Positions 2,033 to 17,622 of a stretch of DNA of 25,053 nt are shown here, piece by piece. This stretch comes from a virus, in the IMG/VR virus record IMGVR_UViG_3300043331_000183, positions 1 through 25,053 of that record, one strand, 5' to 3'. The notes under the pieces were generated by a model. It saw nothing but the letters and a program-made list of their open reading frames with translations. It was not told the origin of the DNA and searched no databases. Position 1 is the stretch's first letter. Each line of letters starts with the position of its first letter. A program made the position numbers and the translations under genes.

Positions 2033-2973
2033 GTCTCCGTGGTGAAATCTACGGGACCACGATCTTCACTAGATCAGAGATCGGACTGAAGCCACCCACT
2101 TCAGTGACACCGATTCCCAATCCACAGATGGTGACTGTGCATTATGCAGGGCCGTCTGACTGGTGCCGTGGAGGTGTAGATCGCTCGTCTCCTGAACGTT
2201 TCCGTCTAACGACCGATCACAGTCGCTGTGCAGCGATCATGCGGTCGCATCAAGCGTTTCACATGGGCCCACAACGCGGGTTCTCTGACTACGCCTACAA
2301 CGGTGCAGTCTGTCCGCATGGTTTCGGGTTCATCGGTCGTGGCCGCGGAGTTCGCTCAGCTGCGCAAGGCACAACGGTTGGTAACAACACCAGCTATGCC
2401 ATCCAGTATATGGGTGCCGGTGTTTGTAACGGTGTAGAGGACCCTCTCACTGAAGCAGCCAAGCGTGCGTTCTATGACTTCGCGGCGTACCTGGACAAGA
2501 CACTTCAGCGCGGTCACCGTGACTGGAAGACAACCTCATGCCCCGGCGAGCCCACCTACGCGTGGCGTCGAGCCGGATTCCCGAAGCCCGCTGGCGGACC
2601 TCCGCCACAACCACCGAAGGATTGGTTTGATATGGCAACGAAGGCAGAGCTGCAAGAACTTCTTCGCACGTACACCTCAGGGTGGCTCGTGCGAGCGAGG
2701 ATGCCAGATGGAAAGTTGGACGACAACGTGTTCGTCGTTGCATCCGACTTCTCGACGAAGACCTGGTGGGGCGGCTGGACCAACGTGAGAGTCATTGACT
2801 TCGTCGATGACCTGATGCCCGGCGGAACAGATGCAGCCGGCAACCCCAAAGCTTGGGACGCTCCCTGGGCAACCATTGCCCAGATCCACGAGCTCGAGAA
2901 TCCTGTGATTGGGACCTCGGAGAATCCGAAGCCGGACTGGCAGGAGCGTCTGGCAGCCCTGAACCCTCAGTAA
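2029..2973 (+). CDS. Endolysin: N-acetylmuramoyl-L-alanine amidase (PGRP / amidase_2 fold)
   Basis: The protein has 314 aa with a GTG start that overlaps the preceding stop. Residues about 30-185 form an amidase_2 / peptidoglycan-recognition domain: MVTVHYAG supplies the first zinc ligand (His38), GFSDYAYN the typical Ser/Tyr region, and GHRDWKTTSCPGE the remaining zinc ligands (His163, Cys171). The enzyme would cut the amide bond between N-acetylmuramic acid and L-Ala of peptidoglycan at the end of infection. A Pro-rich linker (PAGGPPPQPPKDW) leads to a C-terminal domain (about 215-314) that is presumably a wall-binding module but is not recognised. No signal peptide is visible, so release would depend on a holin. 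A perfect 9-bp stem-loop follows the stop directly. Confidence 0.9.
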   Translation: MSLRGEIYGTTIFTRSEIGLKPPTSVTPIPNPQMVTVHYAGPSDWCRGGVDRSSPERFRLTTDHSRCAAIMRSHQAFHMGPQRGFSDYAYNGAVCPHGFGFIGRGRGVRSAAQGTTVGNNTSYAIQYMGAGVCNGVEDPLTEAAKRAFYDFAAYLDKTLQRGHRDWKTTSCPGEPTYAWRRAGFPKPAGGPPPQPPKDWFDMATKAELQELLRTYTSGWLVRARMPDGKLDDNVFVVASDFSTKTWWGGWTNVRVIDFVDDLMPGGTDAAGNPKAWDAPWATIAQIHELENPVIGTSENPKPDWQERLAALNPQ

Positions 2974-3006
2974 GCCCCGGACCTCCATCACTCCCCAGTC
3001 CGGGGC
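2974..3006 (+). terminator. Stem-loop immediately after the endolysin stop codon
   Basis: GCCCCGGAC (2974-2982) and GTCCGGGGC (2998-3006) are perfect 9-bp inverted arms with a 15-nt loop. The stem begins on the base after the TAA. It lacks a clear T-run (CTTGTTAC follows). It could be an intrinsic terminator of the kind common in high-GC hosts, an RNA-stability element, or a structure acting on translation of the next gene, whose start codon at 3018 lies only 11 nt downstream. Confidence 0.55.
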
Positions 3007-3017
3007 CTTGTTACGGA

Positions 3018-3620
3018 GTGGACTATTCGTTCAGTCGACCGAGCTTGGTCTGTCTGCCTGCAACTAACTTAGTTGCAGACAACCCTGACAGCCTTGTGAA
3101 GTTCGTTGTACGATACTTCGGGCGAGACCCACGCTTCGATGGTACCAAGGACCTTACATTGGTTGAAGCCAACGCTTTGAAGAACGCTGGCTTAGCGAGG
3201 GTGTCCAACTATCAGCCACGTCAGGCATTCGTACCAACATTCGCTGATAACGGTGTTGCAGCTGCAACTCAAGCGCATGAAGACGCAGTAGCGTGTGGCA
3301 TGCCTCCTACTCGACCGATCTACTTCTCGGTTGACGGAGACACGTCACAATTCATGGCAACTCGGTGGCAAGCTGTTGATGAGTTCTTCCGTGAGGTGAA
3401 CTCTCAGATAAGTGTACAGCGAACTGGTGCCTATGGAAGCAAGCACACGATTGACCATCTGTCATCTCTTGGGCTCATTGCCTGGAAGTGGCAGACGTCG
3501 TCGTGGTCGCAAGGTGCTTGGGCTGACGTTCACATGCGTCAGTACAACCACAACATTTCCATGTGTAGTGGCTCAGTGGACTTCAATCAAGCAATGAAGG
3601 TCGATTACGGTCAGTGGTGA
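3018..3620 (+). CDS. DUF1906 glycoside-hydrolase-like protein (probable second lysis enzyme)
   Basis: The product has about 200 aa and matches the DUF1906 / Rv2525c-like TIM-barrel family: YGVDYSFSRPS at the beginning, KFVVRYFGRD, then GLARVSNYQP, RPIYFSVDGD with acidic barrel-end residues, GAYGS, and WKWQTSSWS with a final VDFNQAM. Family members are thought to act on cell-wall glycans; their exact activity is poorly known. The GTG at 3018 is the nearest in-frame start but would leave out the Tyr-Gly before the conserved VDYS and has no spaced Shine-Dalgarno (CGGAG abuts it). The frame stays open upstream to about 2808, inside the endolysin gene. The start is therefore uncertain (see findings). 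The stop lies 1 nt before the next ATG. Confidence 0.75.
   Translation: MDYSFSRPSLVCLPATNLVADNPDSLVKFVVRYFGRDPRFDGTKDLTLVEANALKNAGLARVSNYQPRQAFVPTFADNGVAAATQAHEDAVACGMPPTRPIYFSVDGDTSQFMATRWQAVDEFFREVNSQISVQRTGAYGSKHTIDHLSSLGLIAWKWQTSSWSQGAWADVHMRQYNHNISMCSGSVDFNQAMKVDYGQW
3058..3078. repeat. 21-bp near-perfect palindrome inside the DUF1906 gene
   Basis: CTGCAACTAA (3058-3067) and TTAGTTGCAG (3069-3078) are perfect 10-bp arms around a single base. It lies 40 bp after the putative GTG start. It could form a short hairpin in mRNA or bind a dimeric protein. A second palindrome with the same GTTGCAG half (GTTGCAGCTGCAAC, 3255-3268) occurs 180 bp further on. Confidence 0.6.
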
Positions 3621-6551: not shown

Positions 6552-6984
6552 CTTCTGCTTCCTCCTTGTCTGGTGTCCACGGACGGGTCTCGGACAGCAA
6601 CTGTCTCCAGACTCTGACATGGTACTCGCGTACCAGTTCGCTCTCGATGTCCTCAGCCGGACCGTCTGGACACTCGTATCCCGATGCTGCGAAACCCATT
6701 TCCAGGTTGACAGCTGACGCGACAGCATCGAACAGAGAGCGCAGGTCTCTCGTGTACAGTTCGAACGTTGGCTTCCAGTCCACCGCGTCACCAGCAACGT
6801 AAATGCCTATGTCTGAATGTTGCCGTCCACCCGTGTCTGGGGCGTTTACTGTTAGCTCGACTTCCTGTCCGGGTGGTGACATGAACTCGTGACCCTTGTC
6901 ACAAAATATCCGAAACCAGTCTTCGTGCGGAAAACTTTTCGCGACAACTGTAATGCTGCCACAAGTACCACAACGGTAGTCCAT
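6535..6984 (-). CDS. 149-aa protein with N-terminal zinc-binding motif, unknown
   Basis: The start ATG at 6984 overlaps the polymerase stop (TAATG). The protein opens with MDYRCGTCGS (CxxC) and has a further Cys/His in FCDKGHEF, forming a likely zinc ribbon in the first 35 residues. The remainder is acidic and mostly helical (YTRDLRSLFDAVASAVNLEM) with VREYHVRVWRQLLSE near the end. No enzymatic motif is seen. Coupling to the UDG-polymerase gene suggests a replication or repair accessory; this is inference. Confidence 0.65.
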   Translation of the reverse strand: MDYRCGTCGSITVVAKSFPHEDWFRIFCDKGHEFMSPPGQEVELTVNAPDTGGRQHSDIGIYVAGDAVDWKPTFELYTRDLRSLFDAVASAVNLEMGFAASGYECPDGPAEDIESELVREYHVRVWRQLLSETRPWTPDKEEAEDVQPS

Positions 6985-9365
6985 TACACCTCTTTCAGTT
7001 CGCCCCAGGAAGGGCCTGTTGATATGTCTACTGGGAATGGAACGTAGTCACTGAACTCTCGCATAGCGGCTGCGCTCATAACCTTTCGCATTTCCTCGCC
7101 GACCTCGACAGCTTCCTCTTGTTTGCATTCAACCATGATACTGTCGTGTACCGGGATACGAATGCGAGGTGCAGTTGTCGATTGTCCGAACGCTCGACGT
7201 AGGTCCACAAGCGCGGACATACAAATATCGTTCGCGGTTGACTGCGGCAGGAAGGCGAGTGCTTCTTTTTCGACGTCACGTTTGTTGTCCCTCGTGATTA
7301 ACCAAAACCTACGTTTGCGACCGAAGTGTGTTACGAGTCCTTGGCCCCCTGTGAAGACCCTATCACGGACGCTGGTGCGCCATGCGACTGTCTTAGGGAT
7401 GACTCCGAAGAACGCCTGCATGAACTTCTGAGCTTCATGTACAGGCATCCTGTACTCACTAGCGATGCTAGGAGCCTCACGTCCGTAAGCGAGTCCGTAC
7501 ACTATTGCTTTGGCTCGAACCCGTTGTTCCTTGTTCCATCCGGGACCGTAGAACTGCTCTGCGATCTCACCGTGAATGTCCCGGTTCGAGTCCGATAGGA
7601 CTTCTTGGAGGTAGTCGTCCTCTGCATAACAAGCGACCACTCGGAGCTCAACCTGAGAGTAGTCCCCTTGCACAAACGTATTTCCATCTCCCGGGACAAA
7701 TAGTCGCCTGATGCTAGATTCGCGTGGTACGTTCTGAACGTTCGGATTACGACACGCCAGCCGCCCAGTAACGGAACCGTGAAGGAGATAGGTCGGGTAT
7801 ACTCGTCCGTTGTTAAGCCGCTTACGCGTTCCTTTGAGGTAGGTTCCATAGAGCTTTGCTCCCTTGCGATGGCGCATCATTAGGTTCAAGAATTCGAAAC
7901 GATCTGTGCCTTGACGTGAACGCTCGAGTGCTAACTGTAGTGTATCGACGTTCGTGTTCTGATGCGGAATGCCAAGGCCTTTCATAGCTTCCGACACCTG
8001 TTTTGGACTTCGCGGGTTGAACTCAGCGCGTCCTACTACTGCTGCGATTTCTTGTTCAAGGACTGCGAGCTTCTCGAGGAACTCACCAGAGATGATATCC
8101 AGGTGTTGCTGATCGATGGCGATGCCATCCATCTCGACATGGATCATCTCGTTGGAGTAGCGAACTAGTCTGTCGTGGACTGCTCGTAACTCACTACCAA
8201 GCTCGCGTTGAAAATGCGTCCAGAGATTGTAAGTGAGCGCTGCGTCGTAAGCGTTATATCGATACAGGACAGGACGAGGAATGACTGCGTAGGAGTCACC
8301 CTTACCGACATACTTGCCCAGCTCACTGGCATAGTCCGGAGCGCCAAGGATTTCAGAGGCAAGTCCCTTGAGTCCGTGATGTCCAGGCCTCTCATCAAGC
8401 ACGTATGACGCCAGCATTGTATCTGCGTAGAGCTTAGGCGTCCCAATGATCCCAAGGCGCATGAGGACTTGCAAATCGAATTTTCCATTGTGACAAACGA
8501 TCTTCTTCGTGTCGAGGAACTCTGTCAGGAGCCGCTTAACGTACTCGTCCAGTAACGCCCGCTGCCCAAGAACGACAGCTTTATTAGGCTGAAAACCAAT
8601 ACCGACACAGAGTAGGTCAGAAGGATGAGTAAAGTCAGTATCTTTGTCGACTCCGACTTCGATGTCAACTGTAAAGTCCCCAGAACGATCGAGGAGCTCA
8701 CAGAGTACACTAGCTGCTGTTGGTGCATCGTCGAACTCCTTGAATGTTGGTGCTTCCCACTTTACATACGCAGATGTGTCCTTCGCCTTCTTAAGATCCC
8801 GAACGAGTGATGGGAATGTATCACTCGATCGCAAGCAAGCAGCAGGATGTACTGTTGCAACAATCTCAGCACCAGGATACTTGGGGTGGCTACGAGGAGG
8901 ACCCTGGCGGACACGCGTGATTGGCTCACGAGTTTCCAGAACGGCCTGCTTGGCAACGTTTCCAAGTAGGACAATAGTCTGTCGACCCTTAAGTTCCTCT
9001 GCGAGTCTCGGGCGGCATGCGCTCTCAACCTCTTTTGGTGGATCCGTCGGCTTCTGACCCGGTACAAAGAGTGGGTGACAAGCCACCACGTTCGTGAATC
9101 GGACCTGAGACTGATCAAATCCATGATGAGCCAGAACCTTATCCAGGAGTTGGCCAGACGGTCCCGTGAAGGGCTTCCCCGTCTTAGTTTCGTCAGCGCC
9201 AGGAGCAATGCCAACGAGAAGAATAGGAGCGTCACTGGGACCCTTAGCACCTGCGAACCCTGAATGGTCGTACCATGGACACTCCTCACACTTCGCGAGT
9301 GGATGTTTGCGTGGTGGCGGTGGGGGGCTCTCGCCCCCCACCACCGCTTGCTCAGTGTCTGCCAC
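6984..9365 (-). CDS. Fusion: uracil-DNA glycosylase-like domain + DNA polymerase I (3'-5' exonuclease and polymerase)
   Basis: The protein has 793 aa with a GTG start behind AAAGGA. Residues about 24-205 form a family 4/5-type uracil-DNA glycosylase domain: CEEC (Cys26, Cys29), GIAPGADETKTGKPFTG, NVVACHP (Cys96), SACRP (Cys117) and VHPAACLR. The four Cys match the 4Fe-4S ligand layout of these enzymes. Residues about 215-400 form a DEDD 3'-5' exonuclease (FTVDIEVG, VCHNGKFDLQVL, YNAYDAALTYNLW). The rest is a family A polymerase: SVTGRLACRNPNVQNVP, motif A QGDYSQVELRV, motif B RVRAKAIVYGLAYG, motif C PVHDSIMVE. There is no 5'-nuclease domain. Tyr occupies the place of E. coli Phe762. This is presumably the main replicative polymerase. 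Confidence 0.92.
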   Translation of the reverse strand: MADTEQAVVGGESPPPPPRKHPLAKCEECPWYDHSGFAGAKGPSDAPILLVGIAPGADETKTGKPFTGPSGQLLDKVLAHHGFDQSQVRFTNVVACHPLFVPGQKPTDPPKEVESACRPRLAEELKGRQTIVLLGNVAKQAVLETREPITRVRQGPPRSHPKYPGAEIVATVHPAACLRSSDTFPSLVRDLKKAKDTSAYVKWEAPTFKEFDDAPTAASVLCELLDRSGDFTVDIEVGVDKDTDFTHPSDLLCVGIGFQPNKAVVLGQRALLDEYVKRLLTEFLDTKKIVCHNGKFDLQVLMRLGIIGTPKLYADTMLASYVLDERPGHHGLKGLASEILGAPDYASELGKYVGKGDSYAVIPRPVLYRYNAYDAALTYNLWTHFQRELGSELRAVHDRLVRYSNEMIHVEMDGIAIDQQHLDIISGEFLEKLAVLEQEIAAVVGRAEFNPRSPKQVSEAMKGLGIPHQNTNVDTLQLALERSRQGTDRFEFLNLMMRHRKGAKLYGTYLKGTRKRLNNGRVYPTYLLHGSVTGRLACRNPNVQNVPRESSIRRLFVPGDGNTFVQGDYSQVELRVVACYAEDDYLQEVLSDSNRDIHGEIAEQFYGPGWNKEQRVRAKAIVYGLAYGREAPSIASEYRMPVHEAQKFMQAFFGVIPKTVAWRTSVRDRVFTGGQGLVTHFGRKRRFWLITRDNKRDVEKEALAFLPQSTANDICMSALVDLRRAFGQSTTAPRIRIPVHDSIMVECKQEEAVEVGEEMRKVMSAAAMREFSDYVPFPVDISTGPSWGELKEV
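9318..9347. repeat. GC-rich hairpin in the 5' coding region of the UDG-polymerase gene
   Basis: GGTGGGGGGC (9319-9328) pairs perfectly with GCCCCCCACC (9333-9342) around a TCTC loop. The pairing continues after one mismatch (9318/9343). It lies 18-46 nt into the gene on the minus strand and encodes the GGESPPPPP segment. Such a stable stem close to the start codon could limit translation or act as an attenuator. Confidence 0.65.
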
Positions 9366-9383: not shown

Positions 9384-9926
9384 TTAGTGACTGTGGTTGT
9401 GCATGTACTGCAGCACGGCGAGACCATCCGAGGATGGCCAACCGTTCAGCAAGCAGCCATCGGCGACACCAAGAGTCCGCATGATGGAGTCGCAGGCAAT
9501 GACCTTCAGAACGGTGCTGCTCGTCACCTTGTTCGAGTTGATCGACGTGGTTGTTCGTCCGTAGGGGTCGGGCATCAGGTGATCACCTGACAGCACGTAG
9601 TGGATGCTGTTGTAGGGACCTCCGGTGCCACCCGGGTAGGTGTTGACCTTCGTACAGGCATACCCGATGAAGCAGGCGTGCTGAACGTTGACGAGCGGCG
9701 CCGCGTTGCTGATGATGAGCGCCGCGTCATCGAACTCATCGAACCAGCCGCTGGGGATGTCGTAGCTGAGCCCGAGGTATGCCTGGATGCCAGGCGCGCG
9801 GGCAACGTGAATACCGTAGATGCTCGAAGCAGCATCTGCCGGCGAGGCGTTGTCGATGACTTGTTGAGTGCTGACTGCGCCAGCTACGAAGACCAGCGCA
9901 GTCAATAGCGTGATGACTCGTTTCAA
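9384..9926 (-). CDS. Secreted protein of unknown function (signal peptide)
   Basis: The protein has 180 aa. The TTG at 9926 is chosen because GGAGG lies 8 nt upstream and it gives a proper signal peptide: MKRVITLLTALVFVAGAVST, then a likely cleavage after ADA near residue 34. The mature part is about 145 residues with four Cys (HACFIGYAC, VIACDS, DGCLLN), suggesting two disulfides, and many Gly/Ser/Thr/Asn residues. It ends in HNHSH. No enzymatic motif is recognised. A secreted product is unusual between a DNA polymerase and a modification operon; possible roles include superinfection exclusion or modifying the cell surface. It follows a membrane-protein gene whose stop lies 4 nt upstream. 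Confidence 0.65.
   Translation of the reverse strand: MKRVITLLTALVFVAGAVSTQQVIDNASPADAASSIYGIHVARAPGIQAYLGLSYDIPSGWFDEFDDAALIISNAAPLVNVQHACFIGYACTKVNTYPGGTGGPYNSIHYVLSGDHLMPDPYGRTTTSINSNKVTSSTVLKVIACDSIMRTLGVADGCLLNGWPSSDGLAVLQYMHNHSH
9575..9590. repeat. 16-bp perfect palindrome in the secreted-protein gene
   Basis: TCAGGTGATCACCTGA reads the same on both strands with no spacer. It is within coding sequence (VLSGDHLM). A palindrome of this length is only mildly unexpected by chance in 25 kb, so significance is uncertain. Confidence 0.35.
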
Positions 9927-9930
9927 CGTA

Positions 9931-10152
9931 TTATCCTCCAAAGGTGAAGTGTACGAATAACCAAGCGAGGAATCCGAATAGTGCTGCTGCCAATAGGCCT
10001 ACACCTGCCTTCCCTGTATGTTCCTTGATCCAATCACGTACCCACCAGTACATCTGCGAGTACGTGTCGAGCTTGGGTCCCTTCCCCAGAATGCCTGCGA
10101 TCTCCCATGAGAGTGCTAACAGACCAATGAAGAGACCTACCAGTACTGCCAT
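9931..10152 (-). CDS. Small two-helix membrane protein, holin-like topology
   Basis: The protein has 73 aa with ATG 10152 behind AGAGG. There are two hydrophobic segments (MAVLVGLFIGLLALSWEIAG at the N-terminus and VGLLAAALFGFLAWLFVHF near the C-terminus) joined by a polar amphipathic loop containing MYWWVRDWIKEHTGK. The size and topology resemble holins, but it lies far from the lysis cassette, on the opposite strand, and is paired with a secreted protein gene. A role in membrane remodelling or superinfection exclusion is as plausible as lysis. It has its own promoter-like sequence at 10166-10195. Confidence 0.65.
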   Translation of the reverse strand: MAVLVGLFIGLLALSWEIAGILGKGPKLDTYSQMYWWVRDWIKEHTGKAGVGLLAAALFGFLAWLFVHFTFGG

Positions 10153-10165
10153 CGTACCTCTTTCT

Positions 10166-10195
10166 ATTATACCATCTCTCGCTAGGACCCTTCAA
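10166..10195 (-). promoter_or_regulatory. Promoter for the membrane/secreted protein pair
   Basis: On the minus strand: TTGAAG (-35, 10190-10195), 18-bp spacer, TATAAT (-10, 10166-10171) with an extended TGG just before it. The -35 continues as TTGAAGGGTCC, identical to the promoter at 18988-19017. The -35 half lies in the last codons of the dpdA-like gene. The -10 ends 13 nt before the ATG at 10152. Confidence 0.7.
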
Positions 10196-10925
10196 CACGC
10201 ACTTCGCATAGGATGTCCATGTCCCGTACGTTAGCTGCTGCAGTCTCTAGACGATGTGATTCGAGCTCGATGTTGAAGTAGTCCACTTGTCGCTTGATGT
10301 ACTCGTACTCGACGAACAGCTTGTCGTTGAACGCGAGACTGAATGGCAAGCTCGTGTCTACGCCACGTGCGCCCAGCCGAGCAAGCAGTGACAACTCCTG
10401 CATGTGCTCGCTCATGCCTAGACAGTGTACTGCTTGAAGTTCTTTGCGGTACTCACCTCGCCAGGCACTAAGCAAACTGAACCGCGTGTAGGCGTCGATG
10501 TCATTGACATTGCGCGGCAGTCCCAGGACTTGTATCCACTTCTCTCTTGCAAACCACCCCATACAGAACACGAGCTCAGCGAAGGTTTTGCCCTGCACGA
10601 CGCCCATGTATCTGTACTCAGGATGCTTACGAGCTTGTTCACCGAACTCCTGCGCAAGCAAGATCGTGCTGCTCTGGTTCTTTATCGCGTCAGGAACAAC
10701 GATCTCGTCGGCACCAATGAAGTCTGCGATTTCGAAAAGTTCCTTCCGGGGCACAAACTCACCCTCAGCCGCACCGTTATCGAGGATCTTGTAGCCATCG
10801 ATCAAATGGTAGAACTCTGCGTAGTGTTCGTCAGTGCGTACGCGTTGGGGGAGCACAAGGTGGTAGTCGCGTTGTCCACAGAACTGCCACAGGTGCTTGG
10901 TAGGTGGGATCAGCGCCAGCTTCAT
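10182..10925 (-). CDS. dpdA: DpdA-like 7-deazaguanine DNA transglycosylase (TGT fold)
   Basis: The protein has 247 aa, with ATG 10925 overlapping the previous stop (ATGA). Motifs match the tRNA-guanine transglycosylase fold: YKILDNGAAEGEF (Asp49), ADEIVVPDAI (Asp80), YMGVVQGKTF, VHCLGMSEH and RGVDTSLPF (Asp190 at the place of the TGT nucleophile Asp). It is much shorter than tRNA TGTs (about 375 aa) and has no C-terminal CxCxxC zinc site. In phages such proteins, encoded beside preQ0 genes, swap guanine in DNA for a 7-deazaguanine base. It closes an operon with queC, queD, queE and folE, which makes DNA rather than tRNA the likely substrate. A tRNA-directed activity cannot be excluded from sequence alone. 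Confidence 0.85.
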   Translation of the reverse strand: MKLALIPPTKHLWQFCGQRDYHLVLPQRVRTDEHYAEFYHLIDGYKILDNGAAEGEFVPRKELFEIADFIGADEIVVPDAIKNQSSTILLAQEFGEQARKHPEYRYMGVVQGKTFAELVFCMGWFAREKWIQVLGLPRNVNDIDAYTRFSLLSAWRGEYRKELQAVHCLGMSEHMQELSLLARLGARGVDTSLPFSLAFNDKLFVEYEYIKRQVDYFNIELESHRLETAAANVRDMDILCEVRVEGS

Positions 10926-11347
10926 GCAGGGTCAACCTCCTCAGCCCAGGACAGCAAGTCGCTGTAGTCGGAAATGATCGGGTACATCAGCCGGTACATC
11001 AGCTCTGGCTTGGCGATCTTGCTTTCGGGAGCGAACACACATACGGACTTGTCACGGCCGGCTGCCCAACCAGCCTCGAGGTGCGCACTAGCTCCGCACG
11101 GGAGCACGAGCACGAATGCACCAGACATGTTCATTGCGTCCCAGTCACGCTCGAACCCTCGTGTTGCTTGAGGGCTCATCAGAGCATTGACGTACTGGTG
11201 CAAGCTCCAGCTTTCCCAATCCGGGTCTATCTGCTGCCACTTGAACCCATGGTCCCTGAAGTCGTACACCTTGTGTCCCTTCTCAGACAGGAGGTGAACG
11301 ACATAGGGCTGATGTTCATTCCTCCAGCTTGACGCGACGTAGATCAT
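10922..11347 (-). CDS. Nucleoside 2-deoxyribosyltransferase-like protein
   Basis: The protein has 141 aa. ATG 11347 is chosen: AAGGA lies 5-6 nt upstream and it overlaps the preceding stop (ATGA); a TTG at 11362 is less likely. It starts with MIYVASSWRNEHQ, a Rossmann-like strand and turn of the nucleoside 2-deoxyribosyltransferase family, and continues with VYDFRDHGF, then FVLVLPCGASAHLEAGWAAG, where the Glu of HLEAGW is at the place of the catalytic Glu. The family moves or hydrolyses deoxyribose-base bonds. Four-nt coupling to the DpdA-like gene suggests action on a deazaguanine nucleoside or on competing bases; that is inference. Confidence 0.75.
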   Translation of the reverse strand: MIYVASSWRNEHQPYVVHLLSEKGHKVYDFRDHGFKWQQIDPDWESWSLHQYVNALMSPQATRGFERDWDAMNMSGAFVLVLPCGASAHLEAGWAAGRDKSVCVFAPESKIAKPELMYRLMYPIISDYSDLLSWAEEVDPA

Positions 11348-11592
11348 TGGCTTCCTTCCCAACCTTCCTTGGTTAGTTCGTGTTTGAACGCTTTGAGTAG
11401 TCCGGGTTCGACATTGCCTACGCGCATAACCCTTGCTCGCCTGATACTCATCTTACGTCCCCACAACCTGTACTTGTCAGAGAACGTGACGAGAGGAATT
11501 ACAACCTTACGGTCGCTATGATCGATATCATGCTTGGCGCAGTACTGTTCGAATACCGGCCAGCTCTCTGCTATAACGACCGTAACGGTCAA
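11344..11592 (-). CDS. 82-aa protein of unknown function in the modification operon
   Basis: The start TTG at 11592 overlaps the previous stop (TTGA) and is preceded by AGGAGG with an 8-nt spacer. It begins with a hydrophobic strand and a helix (MTVTVVIAESWPVFEQYCAK), then has strand-like VVIPLVTFSDKYRL and a basic segment (GRKMSIRRARVMRVG), ending in a charged helix (LKAFKHELTKEG). A small Rossmann-like fold is possible. No family is recognised. Tight coupling on both sides implies co-expression with the nucleoside deoxyribosyltransferase-like and DpdA-like proteins. Confidence 0.65.
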   Translation of the reverse strand: MTVTVVIAESWPVFEQYCAKHDIDHSDRKVVIPLVTFSDKYRLWGRKMSIRRARVMRVGNVEPGLLKAFKHELTKEGWEGSQ

Positions 11593-11990
11593 CGAGCGTC
11601 CCTCCTAAGGATGCCCCAAGCAAGGACTGAGTACACGGCGCGGTCCTTGTAGGTATCGTCGAGTGCCTCGTTCCTCGGAGGACGCCCTGCCTGGCGAAGG
11701 GTATTGATACGACCTTGCTTGAGCAACACCAATAGGTTGCAAACCTCGAGGGGGTTCAAGCCACCCTGACGAAGCTGCATAGCGTTCGCGACGTAATCGA
11801 AGTTCGCAAAGATGTTCGCTTCGGTCGCGTAGTCAGCGCGCTTTGCGCGATTGGTCAACACCATCTCGATCAACAGCGACTCGAATGGGTCCGTTGGATC
11901 GAGTGTGATGTCCTTGTGTTCATCTGGCACCGTGTACTCTCCTGTAGTGTCGTCCTCTGGGACACGCTTCAGAAAACCTGTAAGTTCCAC
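11589..11990 (-). CDS. DUF6378-like phage protein
   Basis: The protein has 133 aa. GTG 11990 has GAGGAG 9 nt upstream and lies just after the preceding gene; the longer open frame to 12233 is noise inside that gene. The core reads DPFESLLIEMVLTNRAKRAD, then FANFDYVANAMQL and GRPPRNEALDDTYKDRAVYS. The pattern of a lysine/arginine-rich helix, FANF, and a final E(A/G)xDDTxxDRAVY helix is what I associate with small DUF6378-type proteins common in actinophages. They sit near nucleotide metabolism genes; no activity is established. The family assignment is from memory. Confidence 0.65.
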   Translation of the reverse strand: MELTGFLKRVPEDDTTGEYTVPDEHKDITLDPTDPFESLLIEMVLTNRAKRADYATEANIFANFDYVANAMQLRQGGLNPLEVCNLLVLLKQGRINTLRQAGRPPRNEALDDTYKDRAVYSVLAWGILRRDAR

Positions 11991-12003
11991 CGTGTTACTC
12001 TCC

Positions 12004-12402
12004 TCAGTGCGGCCTACCTCCGTAGACCCGTTCGTAGACTCGGATGAGGTCTGGTGGTCTCCATCCTGCTGGTTTGAGTTGCTTTCCGTCTTCTCGCTTC
12101 GGGCCACCGGCTTTCTCCATGTTCGCTCTTTGGATCTCTTCAAAGAATGGTTCAAGGTCGACACCAAGAACCACAGCAGCCCCATAAACCACGTAAAGTA
12201 GATCGCAGAGCTCCTGTATGATATTCGGTACATCCTTATTCGCTACTCCTTCCTTGTATTCGTCGAGTTCTTCCTGGATGCAGTCAGCGCGTACGTTTGC
12301 TAACGCATCCCAGTCGATGTCACGCTTGCGAGGGATCGTGTCTGGCGATCCCAGTTTACACGCGCGATGCATGTCACGCACCTGCGCTTGCGGTTTGTGC
12401 AC
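12004..12402 (-). CDS. MazG-like nucleoside triphosphate pyrophosphohydrolase
   Basis: The protein has 132 aa with GTG 12402, 1 nt after the folE stop, behind GGAG. It is all-helical with EELDEYKEGV followed by NIIQELCDLLYVVYGAAVVL, the E-x-x-E ... E-x-x-D metal-binding pattern of the MazG-like / all-alpha NTP-PPase superfamily. PFFEEIQRANMEKAGGPKR and a lysine-rich segment follow. These enzymes hydrolyse (d)NTPs to the monophosphates. Within this operon it could trim canonical nucleotides or a signalling nucleotide, but it may simply be a general phage house-cleaning enzyme. Confidence 0.8.
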   Translation of the reverse strand: MHKPQAQVRDMHRACKLGSPDTIPRKRDIDWDALANVRADCIQEELDEYKEGVANKDVPNIIQELCDLLYVVYGAAVVLGVDLEPFFEEIQRANMEKAGGPKREDGKQLKPAGWRPPDLIRVYERVYGGRPH

Positions 12403-12403
12403 T

Positions 12404-12991
12404 TCAGTGTCTCCCGTTGTTGATCAGGTTCAGGAACTCCGTCCTTGCCAGTCGGTCGTGATCTCCGTACACGCCAAGCATAGAGCTTGTGGTAGTCTTC
12501 GTACCGTGCACCTGTACGCCTCGGAGAGACATACACATATGCTCGGCTTCCATCACGACCGCAACTCCCTTTGGCTCGAGGAACCTGACGAGGTAGTGTG
12601 CGATGTCGTCCGTCATCTGTTCCTGGATCGTGAGTCCTGCAGCGAACCACTTGACAACACGAGCAATCTTTGACAGACCAACGAGCTGCTCGCTCGGAAC
12701 GTACCCGACATGCGCTAAGCCTGTAACGGGCACGACATGGTGCGCACAGAGGGTCGCGAACGGAATGTCTTTCACTACGATCATCTCGTCGTTCTTGCTC
12801 GGGAAGGTCTTCCACTTGATGTCCTGAGGTGTCGTAACCTCCATCAACATCTGTGCGAACCTTGCAGGAGTGTCAACGAAGTGATCATCTGACCAGTCAA
12901 TGTGAGGCCAGATGATCTCGAACAGCTCAGCCGCACGCTCTGCAGCGCGCATCAAACGCTCTTCCTCAGTCATGTACGCGTGAGCTTCCAT
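12404..12991 (-). CDS. folE: GTP cyclohydrolase I
   Basis: The protein has 195 aa with ATG 12991 overlapping the queE stop (TGATG). Signature motifs: FATLCAHHVVPVTGLAHVGY (Cys82 and the His pair near the zinc), LVGLSKIARVVKWFA, LTIQEQMT, and EAEHMCMSLRGV (His151, Cys153), then GTKTTTSSMLG. The enzyme turns GTP into 7,8-dihydroneopterin triphosphate, the first step of both folate and 7-deazaguanine synthesis. Being coupled to queE and queD places it in preQ0 synthesis. All expected residues are present and the length is normal. Confidence 0.93.
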   Translation of the reverse strand: MEAHAYMTEEERLMRAAERAAELFEIIWPHIDWSDDHFVDTPARFAQMLMEVTTPQDIKWKTFPSKNDEMIVVKDIPFATLCAHHVVPVTGLAHVGYVPSEQLVGLSKIARVVKWFAAGLTIQEQMTDDIAHYLVRFLEPKGVAVVMEAEHMCMSLRGVQVHGTKTTTSSMLGVYGDHDRLARTEFLNLINNGRH

Positions 12992-13677
12992 CAAACACCC
13001 CTTGCTTCCGCAGGCCAGATGTACTTGTGTACTTGCAAGCTAAGCCTCCAAGGCAACTCGTATTCCTGTACGAACTCGATAATGTACCTGGCATCGTACT
13101 TATCCCAAACGGGAGTGACCCAAAAGATTGCTCCTACACCCAAATCTCGTAGGCTGCGGTAATCCTGTAGAGCAAATCCCAAGTCGTGTTCGTCCTTGAC
13201 GACGAACTTGATCCCGTCAGACACCTTGAGACACAGAGCGTTACTACGACGTATCTTTTGTGTCTCATCGTCGAACTCTTCGCCAGAGCCTGGGAGCTTC
13301 CAGTCCATCATGAACTGCAGACCTTGCCAAGTCCATGGCGGGAACTGCTTTGTACCGTTCGTGAAGACCTCCGTCGTGTATCCGCGACCCCACGCGAGTG
13401 TACAAAACTCGTGCAGCTCCAAATCAGGCTGGATGAAAGGCTCTCCCCCTGTGAAGCAGAGATGCTTGGGCCACATTGGAACCTTCTCGATCAGATCTGC
13501 GGGCGAAAGCTTCTCACTTTCGTGTCGCCAGATGCTTGGTTCGATAGCGAACGGTGTATCGCAAGGCCAGCCAGGGCACCGCAGATTGCAGCCAGCAAAA
13601 CGAACAAACTGGGTCGGACGACCGACATTTGGTCCTTCTCCTTGTACGGATGTATACAGTTCACTAAGTCGTAACAT
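12991..13677 (-). CDS. queE: 7-carboxy-7-deazaguanine synthase (radical SAM) with altered Cys spacing
   Basis: The protein has 228 aa with ATG 13677 overlapping the queD stop (TGATG). It begins LYTSVQGEGPNVGRPTQFVR, typical of QueE, followed by AGCNLRCPGWPCDTPF. The three Cys are 30, 34 and 39, a CX3CX4C spacing instead of the usual radical-SAM CX3CX2C. HLCFTGGEPFIQP is the SAM-binding GGEP motif, and VFTNGT follows. It converts 6-carboxytetrahydropterin to 7-carboxy-7-deazaguanine. The inserted residues between the second and third Cys resemble the modified cluster loops of divergent QueE proteins and are worth checking. Confidence 0.9.
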   Translation of the reverse strand: MLRLSELYTSVQGEGPNVGRPTQFVRFAGCNLRCPGWPCDTPFAIEPSIWRHESEKLSPADLIEKVPMWPKHLCFTGGEPFIQPDLELHEFCTLAWGRGYTTEVFTNGTKQFPPWTWQGLQFMMDWKLPGSGEEFDDETQKIRRSNALCLKVSDGIKFVVKDEHDLGFALQDYRSLRDLGVGAIFWVTPVWDKYDARYIIEFVQEYELPWRLSLQVHKYIWPAEARGV

Positions 13678-14165
13678 CAGCCACCTGGTCCTGGTGTGTA
13701 GATCGCAGTACTAGATGGCGTCTCCCAGACCTTGACTGCATCGAGATACGCCATGTCGTTGTACGCGTTGTTGATTGGGAGCTTGATTTGGTCGAACACC
13801 CACCGCGCGATGTTCTCAGCCGTTGGCACGTACGGGAAGAGAATGATCTTCCATCCACGATCATCAGTGACGTATGACGGCTCCGGATCGACTGCATATC
13901 CGAAAGCGTGCATCATGTCGTAGTCACGCTCGTACACGATAAATCCGTGGTCGAGTATGTCGTGTACGTGTTCCGTGAGAATCTGTTTGACGTCACCGAA
14001 ATCGAGAACCATACCTGTCGCGGAGCCTTCCTCCATGAGGACCTCGGACAGGACATAGGCTCGAACTCTGTAACGATGACCATGTGGGTTACGGCACTTC
14101 GAGTTATGCTCAGGTACTCGATGACCTGCATCGAACTCGATCTCCTTGGTCAGAATGTAGGTCAC
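13677..14165 (-). CDS. queD: 6-carboxy-5,6,7,8-tetrahydropterin synthase
   Basis: The protein has 162 aa. GTG 14165 overlaps the previous stop (GTGA) and gives a standard N-terminus; a GTG at 14189 is also open but would overlap more. The PTPS/QueD signature is complete: IEFDAGHRV (His15), CRNPHGHRYRV (Cys24, His28, His30), VLDFGDVK, LDHGFIV, and PTAENIARWVF. The three His bind zinc and Cys24 is catalytic. The enzyme turns dihydroneopterin triphosphate into 6-carboxytetrahydropterin for QueE. It sits directly before queE. Confidence 0.92.
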   Translation of the reverse strand: MTYILTKEIEFDAGHRVPEHNSKCRNPHGHRYRVRAYVLSEVLMEEGSATGMVLDFGDVKQILTEHVHDILDHGFIVYERDYDMMHAFGYAVDPEPSYVTDDRGWKIILFPYVPTAENIARWVFDQIKLPINNAYNDMAYLDAVKVWETPSSTAIYTPGPGG

Positions 14166-14386
14166 AGTACTGCTAGCTCCTGAGCCCACCAGATGATCAC
14201 GACGGTCAGTGCGAACAGGACCAGCGCCAGTGCGTAGAAAGCAAGCGCCTTTCCAGCTTGTTGACTCCTGACTTCGTTCAACGCGAGCTTGCGGCGTAGA
14301 TCGTCATTGCCCTCGAAAATCTTGTCGAGTCGTGCTTGCTCCTGTTCCGCCTTCAGCTTGCGTATGTTGTACTCAGATTCGTTCAC
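14162..14386 (-). CDS. Tail-anchored small membrane protein in the que operon, unknown
   Basis: The protein has 74 aa with GTG 14386 behind GGAG at 7 nt. Residues 1-45 form a charged helix with heptad character (EYNIRKLKAEQEQARLDKIF), followed by one hydrophobic segment at the C-terminus (ALAFYALALVLFALTVVIIW). It overlaps the preceding gene by 14 nt and queD by 4 nt. Why a membrane protein lies between queC and queD is unclear; it could be unrelated cargo. No family is recognised. Confidence 0.65.
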   Translation of the reverse strand: MNESEYNIRKLKAEQEQARLDKIFEGNDDLRRKLALNEVRSQQAGKALAFYALALVLFALTVVIIWWAQELAVL

Positions 14387-14666
14387 CGATTGGCTCCATC
14401 ACTCTGAGGGTCGTACCTTGCTGACGTATGCGCTGTGGTGAGTCTAGCTCACGCACTCCAGCATAGTACCAGTACTCGCCTGGCTCTATGTCCGGCATGT
14501 CCTCGATTTTCAAGTACATCGTACGTTTGCTACTGGTCTTCTCATACAGCACCGTCCCATCAGGTCGAGTAATCCGGAAGAAGAATTGCAGTCGCCCTTT
14601 CAGGCCCGACCCCTTAGTACTGAACTTGATTGGGATCTCGGTGCCCTTTAGTAGCACCATCGTCAC
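14373..14666 (-). CDS. 97-aa beta-rich protein in the que operon, unknown
   Basis: GTG 14666 overlaps the queC stop (GTGA) and has GGAGGG at 9 nt. The sequence alternates strands and turns: GTEIPIKFSTKGSGLKGRLQ, then FFFRITRPDGTVLYEKTS, MYLKIEDMPDIEPGEYWYYA and GTTLRVME. This looks like a small immunoglobulin-like or tail-decoration beta-sandwich. Such folds are normal in virion proteins but odd inside a biosynthetic operon. No enzyme motif is visible. Confidence 0.65.
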   Translation of the reverse strand: MTMVLLKGTEIPIKFSTKGSGLKGRLQFFFRITRPDGTVLYEKTSSKRTMYLKIEDMPDIEPGEYWYYAGVRELDSPQRIRQQGTTLRVMEPIGERI

Positions 14667-15382
14667 TGCAGTTTGCCCTCCTTGACAAGTTCCTCGTACA
14701 GCGAGACGTCAGCATAATTGGTAGGGTCAGAAACGCCAGCAATCCCGAATGCCTCAATTCGCTCCAGACAAGTCGAACAACGTCCACAGTGAATGTCGCC
14801 TCCCTTGTAGCAGCTCCACGTCTGCGTCCAGTCGACCTTGAGCTCGTCGCCCAACTGCGCGATGTCTGCCTTGGTCATCATGACGAATGGTGCAAGCACT
14901 GCGAAGGCCGGGTTGATGAAGCCCTCACAAGCGATGTGAGCCAGACTTTGCAGCTTCGCGATAAAGTCTGGCCTGCAATCGGGGTACACGGCGTGATCCC
15001 CTGCGTGGATACCGATGCGAACGTCGACTGCCTTCTCCGCGACTGCGTGTGCGATCGCAATGTTCAGCATCATGGAGTTGCGGTTCGGGACAACCGTGAT
15101 CTTCATCGTCTCGTCCTCGTAATGACCCTCAGGCACCTCGATGCCTGGATCAGTCAACGCGGACGTGTCGATCAGCTCGTTGACACTACGTAGGTCAACT
15201 AAGTGCCACGGCACTTCGTAGTGACGTGCCTGCCACTGAGCGAATCCGAGCTCGCGCCTGTGACGCTGTCCGTAATCGAAGCTCAGAGCAGAAACCTGTT
15301 GTGGGCCCCACTCGTTCACGGCAGCAGCCAAAAGCACCGTCGAGTCCATGCCACCAGAGATGATGACAACTGATGCTACCAT
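14663..15382 (-). CDS. queC: preQ0 synthase (7-cyano-7-deazaguanine synthase)
   Basis: The protein has 239 aa with ATG 15382, 1 nt after the primase-helicase stop. The PP-loop SGGMDSTVLL (residues 9-18) binds ATP; FDYGQRH, VVPNRNSMML, GIHAGDHAVYPDCRPDF and WSCYKGGDIHCGRCSTC with four zinc Cys (191, 199, 202, 205) are all QueC hallmarks. The enzyme converts 7-carboxy-7-deazaguanine to preQ0 using ATP and ammonia. It is normal in length and not fused to an amidotransferase domain, so formation of archaeosine-type bases through a Gat-QueC is not indicated. Confidence 0.94.
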   Translation of the reverse strand: MVASVVIISGGMDSTVLLAAAVNEWGPQQVSALSFDYGQRHRRELGFAQWQARHYEVPWHLVDLRSVNELIDTSALTDPGIEVPEGHYEDETMKITVVPNRNSMMLNIAIAHAVAEKAVDVRIGIHAGDHAVYPDCRPDFIAKLQSLAHIACEGFINPAFAVLAPFVMMTKADIAQLGDELKVDWTQTWSCYKGGDIHCGRCSTCLERIEAFGIAGVSDPTNYADVSLYEELVKEGKLQ

Positions 15383-15383
15383 T

Positions 15384-17585
15384 TCACTCTCCTCCGACCT
15401 TTACGGTCCTCATCGGGTAGAGCCTCTCGGCCCTGTTGCTCTTTTCGATGCGAATCAGCCCACGCTGCGAGAGCGTAGCAAAGATCGCTTCTGCTTCTCG
15501 TGCATGCAGTCTGAACACCTGCATCAACTGGCTACGTGAGCAGCCTGTGTTGTCCTGCACGAACTTGAGTACGCGTTCGAGTTCCTTCTCTGATGCAGTC
15601 TTGCCTGCGTTAGCAACGACGTTGAGTGCGTACTGCTTCCAACGCTCAACATACGCAAATGCATGAAGGATGTCTGTCTCACGTACAACCACTTCGTCAT
15701 CTAGTCGCTCGGCTGCAGCAACCAGAATTGCGGCTTTCAACCCTGACTGGGCAAGTCTCACCATCACAGGGGTGAGTATGTCTGGAATCGAAGATTCTAT
15801 ACCGATAGTCAGCATTGTCTCTTCGATCCGATTGTATAACACCCAAGCTTCAGGTGTTAGCTGAACTTCCCAGTTGCGACTGAAATTGACCGTCTCACCG
15901 TTCGAGCTGTCATCAATCACCTTAACGTTGTAGTGCGCGTGGATGTCGCGGAACCTCTGCAACAGTTCATCTCGTCTAGAGACTGTAGCTACTGAAGGCG
16001 GTCCGAGCGGACGCAACTTAGTGATGTCTGACGTAGCTGTAATGAAACAAAACCTAGGAACGAATCCACTGTTGATGTGGTCTGCTGTCAACAGGCTGTA
16101 TATCCGCTCCTTGATCCCGCCTGTGAAGAGGATCAACACGGGCTCGCGGACTTCAATCGTTTCTTTCTTGAGTACTCGCTTCTGGAACTTGCCGTCGTAG
16201 AGCTTTGTCAGTGTCTCGAGCATCCCCGCATAGTAGTCACGTTTGTTCATCTGCTCGAGCAGTCCAGAAAACTCGTCGCGTAAGAAAATTGAAGGACGTC
16301 CGGGTCGTACGGACAGTGACCCCATTAAGCCTTCGATGGAGCCATCTGTTGCCAGCACGCAGTCCGAGTCGATTTCCGTTAAGAAGTCGATAGCCAAGTC
16401 CATGGCGGTCGTCTTGCGAGTCAGGGTTGTGTCCGCTAAGATCATGAACCATAGATTGGGCAAGACTGCTCCGTAGCTCGTTGGCAATCGCACGCGACCT
16501 GCAAGCAGGGCAGACAGAACTGTGAAAGCTCCTGCTTCGTGGTATTGTGGTGCTGCATCTCCTGTTGTCTTGGCCCATTCTATGTACTCCTCCACGACGG
16601 TGTGGCGTTGTTTTGCTCGTTCACGTTCTTCGCTTGTGAGGATGTCCTTGTCAGGCAAGTACCAGTTCGGCTCCTCACCGCTTGCCTCTACGACTGCTAT
16701 GGTCTGGTTCTCTGCAGCGGCTTGCGCGCGAATGACATCTTTCCACAGCAGCTCATCTGGTTTGTTGTCTCTTGCGAACTTGTTGCAGGCGGCGCTCTTA
16801 GCGACCGTAAAGACCTGCTCTGCTGTTAACCCAGCTGCGAACAACATCTGGTTCAGATGCCACAACTGACCTGACCAGTCGCCGTTCGGAATCTCGTTGA
16901 CCAGCGTGAAGACTCTAGGGTGCACACTCATACGTGCGGCTTCCAGGATCTCTTCCGCAGTCTCTTCTGACCATACCTCTGGCATCGGAGTGTCAACTCT
17001 ACTGACACCCTCAGCCTCTGGATACGCGTCGAAATCCTTTAGCTCGTACTCCTCACCATCACCGCCAACAAGCAGAATCTCGTGCATCTCCGGGCTGTAC
17101 TTGTAGTTGCGAGTGAGAGGGACCCGTAGCAGTTGAGTCAGGTCCCAGCCAGTAGTGTCGCAACCTTCTTCTTTATGGCGATAGGCAATACGTCGGTTAA
17201 GGCTCTCGATGTCGAGTGCGTGTTGTGAATCCTTGAACTTCCAGTACGCTTGGTACCTACCGTATGACGTACGCACTACCACACTAGCTGGTACTAACAG
17301 ATTCTCAGGGTCACAAGTATCGAGGTCAGCCCATGCTACATCGCTGATCTCGATGTTCTCTTTGACTCGCCGCGGCTGACGCAGAAGTGTCGGACAGAAG
17401 TAGACGTCACAATGCAACAAGCGCTTGTCAATGAAGGCAAGCGCTTGTCCTATGTCGTCGGGATACCGAACGAATATCTCTGTGAACTCTCCTGATCTTG
17501 CGACACGGGCACACAACGACATGAAGCCCTCGTTGCGTCCGTACACCCACCTGAGAAAGCCAACTCGCTTGTCATCGTCTGGCAC
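15384..17585 (-). CDS. Primase-helicase (AEP-type primase domain + DUF3987-like ATPase + winged helix)
   Basis: The product has about 733 aa. GTG 17585 follows AAGGAG closely; an in-frame GTG at 17600 is the alternative but has no ribosome-binding site. The N-terminal part (about 30-190) looks like a RepB/archaeo-eukaryotic primase domain: VAWADLDTCD (DxD-like metal site), VVVRTSYGRYQAYWKF, and LTQLLRVPLTRNYKY. The middle carries a RecA-like ATPase of phage DUF3987 type: LWFMILADTTLTRKTTAMDL at the P-loop position, with Gly residues replaced, and SIFLRDEFSGLL as Walker B. The last 70 residues form a winged helix (CSRSQLMQVFRLHAREAEAI). It would prime and unwind DNA for the polymerase. The queC gene follows 1 nt later. 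Confidence 0.8.
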   Translation of the reverse strand: MPDDDKRVGFLRWVYGRNEGFMSLCARVARSGEFTEIFVRYPDDIGQALAFIDKRLLHCDVYFCPTLLRQPRRVKENIEISDVAWADLDTCDPENLLVPASVVVRTSYGRYQAYWKFKDSQHALDIESLNRRIAYRHKEEGCDTTGWDLTQLLRVPLTRNYKYSPEMHEILLVGGDGEEYELKDFDAYPEAEGVSRVDTPMPEVWSEETAEEILEAARMSVHPRVFTLVNEIPNGDWSGQLWHLNQMLFAAGLTAEQVFTVAKSAACNKFARDNKPDELLWKDVIRAQAAAENQTIAVVEASGEEPNWYLPDKDILTSEERERAKQRHTVVEEYIEWAKTTGDAAPQYHEAGAFTVLSALLAGRVRLPTSYGAVLPNLWFMILADTTLTRKTTAMDLAIDFLTEIDSDCVLATDGSIEGLMGSLSVRPGRPSIFLRDEFSGLLEQMNKRDYYAGMLETLTKLYDGKFQKRVLKKETIEVREPVLILFTGGIKERIYSLLTADHINSGFVPRFCFITATSDITKLRPLGPPSVATVSRRDELLQRFRDIHAHYNVKVIDDSSNGETVNFSRNWEVQLTPEAWVLYNRIEETMLTIGIESSIPDILTPVMVRLAQSGLKAAILVAAAERLDDEVVVRETDILHAFAYVERWKQYALNVVANAGKTASEKELERVLKFVQDNTGCSRSQLMQVFRLHAREAEAIFATLSQRGLIRIEKSNRAERLYPMRTVKVGGE
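17418..17449. repeat. Tandem pair of CAAGCGCTTGTC
   Basis: CAAGCGCTTGTC occurs at 17418-17429 and 17438-17449, 20 bp apart. Each contains the 10-bp palindrome CAAGCGCTTG. The copies fall in different codon phases of the primase-helicase gene, so protein repetition does not explain them. Confidence 0.5.
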
Positions 17586-17622
17586 AACTCTCCTTGGCAC
17601 CGTATAGAAGTGAGGGATAGCA

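Follow-up and report, generated by a model that had tools for sequence, protein, structure and literature searches.

The window analysed here, the entire 25,053-base IMG/VR record IMGVR_UViG_3300043331_000183, is a phage fragment whose minus strand carries a replication operon that very probably encodes a DpdA3-type 7-deazaguanine DNA modification system. This reading is supported by four enzymes of the preQ0 (7-cyano-7-deazaguanine) pathway with their catalytic motifs, by a 247-aa protein with the predicted fold of the tRNA-guanine transglycosylases (TGT), by the relatives of that protein in Campylobacter phage CP220 and Flavobacterium phage immuto, and by the linkage of its gene to preQ0 genes. 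A preliminary description of this DNA, made from the sequence alone, had predicted 7-deazaguanine modification from a preQ0 pathway accompanied by a DpdA-like transglycosylase; the five genes it listed were all found in place on the minus strand, and its interpretation is partly supported. What is new is a link between this transglycosylase family and enzymes of the nucleotide pool, which DpdA1 and DpdA2 do not share.

Fold and family of the transglycosylase

The TGT-like open reading frame (ORF) matched no Pfam, PHROG or NCBIfam entry at a threshold of 0.01, the TGT families of these collections included, and PDB sequence searches with the protein or its profile returned no TGT; fold comparison alone did so. 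An AlphaFold2 model built from 60 sequences (mean predicted local distance difference test 96.1, predicted template modelling score 0.92) was compared with the PDB using Foldseek, and the best 50 matches listed were all tRNA-guanine transglycosylases (top match 2e-8). VIA-align superposed 230 residues on the archaeosine TGT 1iq8 (Z 17.9, root-mean-square deviation 3.2). The product of this gene can thus be assigned with high confidence, on the predicted model, to the TGT-type (beta/alpha)8 barrel, a fold that had earlier been deduced without any family match. The closest viral model was that of an uncharacterised protein of Cellulophaga phage phiST (TM 0.85).

Residues D49, N50, E54, H167, G170 and D190 are invariant in the family and D79 is conserved at 99%; in the model, the conserved residues lie mostly at the C-terminal ends of barrel strands, and the catalytic aspartates follow the TGT order. 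An order-matched alignment with DpdA1, for which the profile scores are weak, pairs D49/D72, D79/D114, H167/H196 and D190/D215, so that the conserved histidine of DpdA1 (9g His196) is present as His167. Of the three aspartates that had been proposed as catalytic, Asp49 and Asp190 stand, while the third is Asp79 and not Asp80. The TGT zinc site (CxCxxC...H) is absent, as already noted for this short protein, which has only four scattered cysteines (positions 16, 121, 168 and 240).

The protein showed no relation by BLASTp to the DpdA of 9g, the TGT of Dp-1, the DpdA of Funsized or the DpdA2 of Vibrio phage nt-1 (no match to ORF390), and hmmsearch against 9g-type DpdA1 gave no match. By sequence it joins neither TGT, DpdA1 nor DpdA2 but belongs to a separate family found in viruses; the absence of any grouping with tRNA TGTs by sequence agrees with the preliminary description. 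A five-member profile detected at least 238 IMG/VR loci, and a genome scan with one family pattern found no cellular relative. Weak matches of family members to PHROG_19058 and PHROG_20335, both of unknown function, gave no useful assignment. The five-member profile also matches CPT_0056 of CP220 (E 3.5e-21), and this protein and that of the window fall in one tree, whose deep forks are weakly supported and in which the window protein lies in no starred clade. The immuto protein, deposited as 'DpdA' and 'DNA guanine transglycosylase', scores 1.2e-52 with the family profile. Isolated phages with further members, most of which are database entries named 'hypothetical protein', are CPt10, CP20, CP21, IBB_35 and other Campylobacter phages, Cellulophaga phages phiST, phi13:1 and phi19:2, Chryseobacterium phage MA9V-3, Bacillus phage BSP7 and the Bacillus BSTP phages, Weizmannia phage Youna2 and Aeromonas phage Ahp1.

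Cui et al. 2023 reportedly use DpdA3 as the name of a subfamily that allows complete replacement, and CPT_0056 is presumably the DpdA3 protein of that study. From the family shared with CP220 and immuto, the window protein is almost certainly of the DpdA3 type. In the DNA of CP220 and CPt10, 100% of deoxyguanosine (dG) is reported to be replaced by 2'-deoxy-7-amido-7-deazaguanosine (dADG) (PMC8306585).

The preQ0 genes and the predicted DNA base

The preliminary description was right about queC, queD, queE and folE, all of which are confirmed by family scores and catalytic motifs, with variant cysteine spacings in QueC and QueE. QueC carries SGGMDS, YGQRHRRE, VPNRN and YPDC, and fits the QueC signature defined in 2026 (PMC13329287) except in the spacing of its zinc motif, which is C-x7-CxxCxxC and not C-x8, as in 46 of the 56 QueCs from transglycosylase loci. 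The cluster motif of QueE is CX3CX4C where the standard is CX3CX2C, a form (CNLRCPGWPCD) shared by 25 of 61 QueEs of the loci, among them those of the window, L015, L018, L025, L093 and others (loci are numbered with the prefix L). A longer second spacing (CTHRCYFGEGGWCD) is found in L060, L070, L072 and L094. Both QueE spacings are unusual among radical S-adenosylmethionine (SAM) enzymes, yet conserved across loci. FolE2 (PF02649) replaces FolE in the phage preQ0 clusters of L034, L045, L047, L049, L056 and L086, the first two being tested with Pfam (3e-79) and the remaining four assigned by clustering.

FolE, QueD, QueE and QueC would make preQ0 from GTP, and the compact DpdA3-type transglycosylase would exchange guanine for preQ0 by retained TGT chemistry, with Asp190 as nucleophile, Asp49 as general base and Asp79 in base recognition, judging from their positions. 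The phage DNA would then carry 7-deazaguanines, probably at a large share of its Gs, and would probably resist restriction, escaping bacterial DNA-cutting enzymes.

The likely product is, as a first guess, 2'-deoxy-7-cyano-7-deazaguanosine (dPreQ0), with dADG also possible. In 20 related records (about 50 kb) no match exceeded the QueF cut-off, and the weak ones came from ORFs whose lengths fit FolE, a related T-fold; this absence, together with an unfused QueC, favours dPreQ0. The same two observations give no indication of deoxyarchaeosine (dG+) or of 2'-deoxy-7-aminomethyl-7-deazaguanosine (dPreQ1), ArcS and separate amidotransferases not having been searched for in the relatives and the window being a fragment. 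The earlier argument from a missing QueF and a missing amidotransferase thus keeps its premise on QueF but loses its strict conclusion, because CP220 reportedly has dADG alongside a family member and a QueC of ordinary length (231-aa open frame).

Among known systems, the DpdA3 phages CP220/CPt10 and immuto share the transglycosylase family by profile and also have preQ0 genes. The gene order in immuto is FolE, pyrophosphohydrolase, transglycosylase, formyltransferase, kinase, QueF and PolA, whereas the window has no QueF, formyltransferase or kinase and its sequence similarity to these phages is distant; in CP220, the transglycosylase gene lies apart from the preQ0 genes. Vibrio phage nt-1 likewise has a TGT-like protein beside preQ0 genes, but this DpdA2 is of 464 aa and reportedly without the conserved histidine of DpdA, which the window protein retains. 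The set of FolE, QueD, QueE, QueC and a transglycosylase, with no amidotransferase, recalls the systems of Rosebush and CAjan, which place dPreQ0 at about 28–32% of Gs (PMC6884629). Neither BLAST nor HMMER, however, relates the window transglycosylase to the DpdA1 proteins of 9g, Dp-1 and Funsized, those of Rosebush and CAjan themselves not having been compared.

Nucleotide-pool enzymes and the site of base exchange

The earlier list of operon genes overlooked MazG, a nucleoside 2-deoxyribosyltransferase (NDT)-like gene and the link to DNA polymerase A (PolA), all of which bear on whether the exchange occurs on DNA or on nucleotides. In 86 loci, collected by pattern-seeded searches with mechanical gene calls on the contigs and yielding counts that are not independent events, the recurring order is (primase) QueC-QueD-QueE-FolE-MazG-(small ORF)-transglycosylase-PolA. 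PolA is found in 70, FolE in 62, QueE in 59, QueD in 56 and QueC in 55, many contigs being short. As many viral contigs surround a homologous ORF with the same genes, the association goes beyond chance. In the dereplicated set, 27/78 loci have MazG no more than four genes from the transglycosylase, compared with 1/38 for DpdA1 and 0/7 for DpdA2; the corresponding figures are 8/78, 0/38 and 0/7 for deoxynucleoside kinase (dNK)-like proteins and 56/78, 9/38 and 0/7 for PolA. A Pfam census of neighbours at up to two genes on either side found families of MazG, dGTP diphosphohydrolase and P-loop kinases on the DpdA3-type side alone. Some census profiles were derived from these same loci, and as a control the DpdA1 set is narrow, centred on 9g-like phages, as scans with the DpdA proteins of Dp-1 and Funsized gave almost no loci. 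Mycobacterium phage Funsized (L007), of the DpdA1 type, has an adenylate kinase gene immediately past FolE, which runs partly counter to a restriction of kinases to the DpdA3 type.

Because MazG might belong instead to a module of PolA with a uracil-DNA glycosylase (UDG) domain, UDG-PolA loci were collected independently. MazG was nearby in 28/43 of those with the transglycosylase and 0/18 of those without it (Fisher 1e-6, uncorrected for kinship), and preQ0 genes in 41/43 and 0/18, respectively. Three kinds of kinase adjoin the transglycosylase gene, on branches dispersed across the tree: a deoxynucleoside monophosphate kinase (DNMK) in Ahp1 and L072, dNK-like proteins in Bacillus phages, L041, L054 and L087, and AAA_28 proteins in CP220 and immuto. 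Near the transglycosylase gene of L087 (5535-6494), a MazG domain (PF03819) is fused to a deoxynucleoside kinase (PF01712), and a relative in L051 has a dATP/dGTP diphosphohydrolase in place of MazG (PF18909, E 2.8e-22). No recognisable kinase is encoded in the clade of the window. The small MazG-like neighbours c13, c27 and c28 were not counted as MazG since their hhalign matches to MazG were not significant. DUF3310 proteins directly adjoin the transglycosylase in about 11 loci (L024, L026, L035, L044, L064 and others).

Exchange on DNA after replication has about an even chance of being correct, and insertion by DpdA is said in Cui et al. 2023 to be post-replicative. Given the MazG, kinase and PolA genes linked to this family, a nucleotide route before replication deserves serious consideration, and we regard it as a substantial possibility, short of even. 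MazG would convert dGTP to dGMP, the transglycosylase would swap the guanine of the deoxynucleotide (or of the nucleoside) for preQ0, a kinase of either the phage or the host would re-phosphorylate the product and PolA would incorporate it, following the logic of the Z-genome phages (MazZ, PurZ, DpoZ) transferred to G. The Z cluster of cyanophage S-2L (MazZ, PurZ, DatZ) similarly places a MazG-type enzyme beside a base-altering enzyme and is tied to a replication module, although it is A that S-2L replaces, with a PurA homologue and not a TGT altering the base. The proximity of MazG with which the Pfam census agrees, its dependence on the transglycosylase among UDG-PolA loci, and the kinases in scattered lineages all favour this route; the L087 fusion is hard to explain unless the nucleotide is altered between the two steps, and the complete replacement in CP220 would suit it. 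To our knowledge, however, the TGT-superfamily enzymes so far described act on polynucleotides. Pfam and PHROG searches of the 20 related records detected no DNMK, thymidylate kinase or NDT, so that host kinases would be needed, and the derivation of census profiles from these loci and the narrow DpdA1 control also count against it. Tests on the proteins themselves were neutral: acidity, examined as a possible mark of enzymes that do not act on DNA, gave no support (the median pI was 5.7, compared with 6.1 for DpdA1, but equal relative to the other genes of each phage), nor did the share of conserved Lys/Arg discriminate (3/31 and 9/113). The nearest PDB relative of the window MazG is DR2231, which we take to be a dUTPase. 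This last point, the UDG domain of PolA and the frequent position of MazG directly after FolE would agree with a different role, in which MazG clears dUTP alongside the UDG or trims the FolE triphosphate while exchange proceeds on DNA. We consider this less likely than not, given that MazG was never found near UDG-PolA when the transglycosylase was missing and that L051 has a dATP/dGTP diphosphohydrolase instead; QueD, moreover, takes the FolE product as the triphosphate. Published work includes a modified-dGTP route proposed for Campylobacter phages (PMC6884629) and the identification of MazZ as a (d)GTP diphosphohydrolase (PMC8342488).

Several points weigh against a DpdA3-type DNA modification system. 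Identity between the window protein and its relatives is 22–41%, and the tree places CP220 in its opposite half, so that product and extent are extrapolated for this virus. Homology to DpdA1 by hhalign is marginal (probability 64% with 3 rows and 6% with 38 rows), which leaves the fold as the real evidence for TGT kinship. The cysteine spacings of QueE and QueC are non-canonical, and the queuosine of tRNA is, in principle, another possible use of preQ0. An operon that supplies queuosine or preQ0 for host or phage tRNA would use the same four genes and the same fold as tRNA TGT, and Hutinet 2019 names the tRNA option for phages without DpdA. That explanation is very improbable here: the zinc site and, in the 20 related records, a QueF above cut-off are missing, the genes are linked to primase and DNA polymerase and not to tRNA genes (there is no tRNA in the window), and the relatives in CP220 and immuto point to DNA.

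Gene layout of the window and implications

The minus-strand run from the primase-like gene to UDG-exonuclease-PolA (Table 1) consists of near-abutting or overlapping genes, those for the NDT-like protein and the transglycosylase overlapping by 4 nt. By search, an NDT near the transglycosylase family occurs only in the window and L058, and the NDT-like gene is a local addition, not a core part of the cassette. The protein encoded at 11589..12233 probably has its real start inside the ORF, as its PHROG match is confined to part of its length. The UDG domain of the window PolA has likely iron-sulfur cysteines, and related polymerases occur also in phages without a preQ0 cassette. Elsewhere in the window (2853-3620), an Rv2525c-like glycoside-hydrolase domain beside an amidase-like ORF hints at an actinobacterial host.

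Table 1. Features of the modification operon and adjoining genes, in order of the minus strand.
Feature	Position	Strand	Evidence
Primase/helicase-like (DUF3987), cassette head	15384..17600	-	PF13148 5.2e-13; upstream of QueC in many relatives
QueC, preQ0 synthase, unfused, 239 aa	14663..15382	-	PF06508 E 1.9e-60 and TIGR00364, both above cut-off; catalytic motifs
Small ORF within operon, unknown function	14373..14666	-	ORF; 4-nt overlap with QueC
Small ORF, probable one-helix membrane protein	14162..14386	-	ORF; judged by eye
QueD, 6-carboxytetrahydropterin synthase	13677..14189	-	PF01242 E 7.8e-32; TIGR03367 just above cut-off; CxxxHGH
QueE, radical SAM 7-carboxy-7-deazaguanine (CDG) synthase, variant CX3CX4C cluster motif	12991..13677	-	PHROG_2076 E 2.6e-35; motif
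FolE, GTP cyclohydrolase I	12404..12994	-	PF01227 E 2.1e-52; CAHH, EHxC
MazG-type all-alpha nucleotide pyrophosphohydrolase, DR2231-like	12004..12402	-	PF01503 E 1.3e-15; PF03819; PDB DR2231 E 5e-22
Unknown protein	11589..12233	-	PHROG_1485 match over residues 116-212 only; relatives in 11 other loci
Unknown small protein	11344..11592	-	ORF only
NDT-like	10922..11362	-	PHROG_12607 E 2.4e-42; candidate catalytic Glu96 in SAHLEAGWA
Guanine transglycosylase, almost certainly DpdA3-type, 247 aa	10182..10925	-	AlphaFold2 model; archaeosine TGT 1iq8 alignment; family invariants
Small hydrophobic ORF between transglycosylase and polymerase	9931..10152	-	ORF; no homologue among loci
Unknown protein	9384..9941	-	No Pfam or PHROG match
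PolA with N-terminal UDG domain and 3'-5' exonuclease	6984..9365	-	PF00476 3e-70; PF03167 3.8e-26; PF01612 8.2e-16

DpdA3-type modification, known from few isolates, appears to be widespread in uncultivated phages (at least 238 loci), under a gene that has gone unannotated. Through the link with MazG, kinases and PolA, the question of where the exchange takes place, on finished DNA or in the nucleotide pool, becomes directly testable. One possibility, in our view less likely than not, is that DpdA3-type enzymes work on the deoxynucleotide pool instead of DNA and, together with MazG and a deoxynucleotide kinase, turn dGTP into 7-deaza-dGTP for the phage polymerase, so achieving complete replacement of G. 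If true, the Z-genome pathway would have a counterpart for guanine, and a TGT-fold enzyme would for the first time be known to act on mononucleotides. A compact operon could then install complete G replacement in DNA, which would be useful for synthetic genetics and for predicting the restriction resistance of phages from their sequences.

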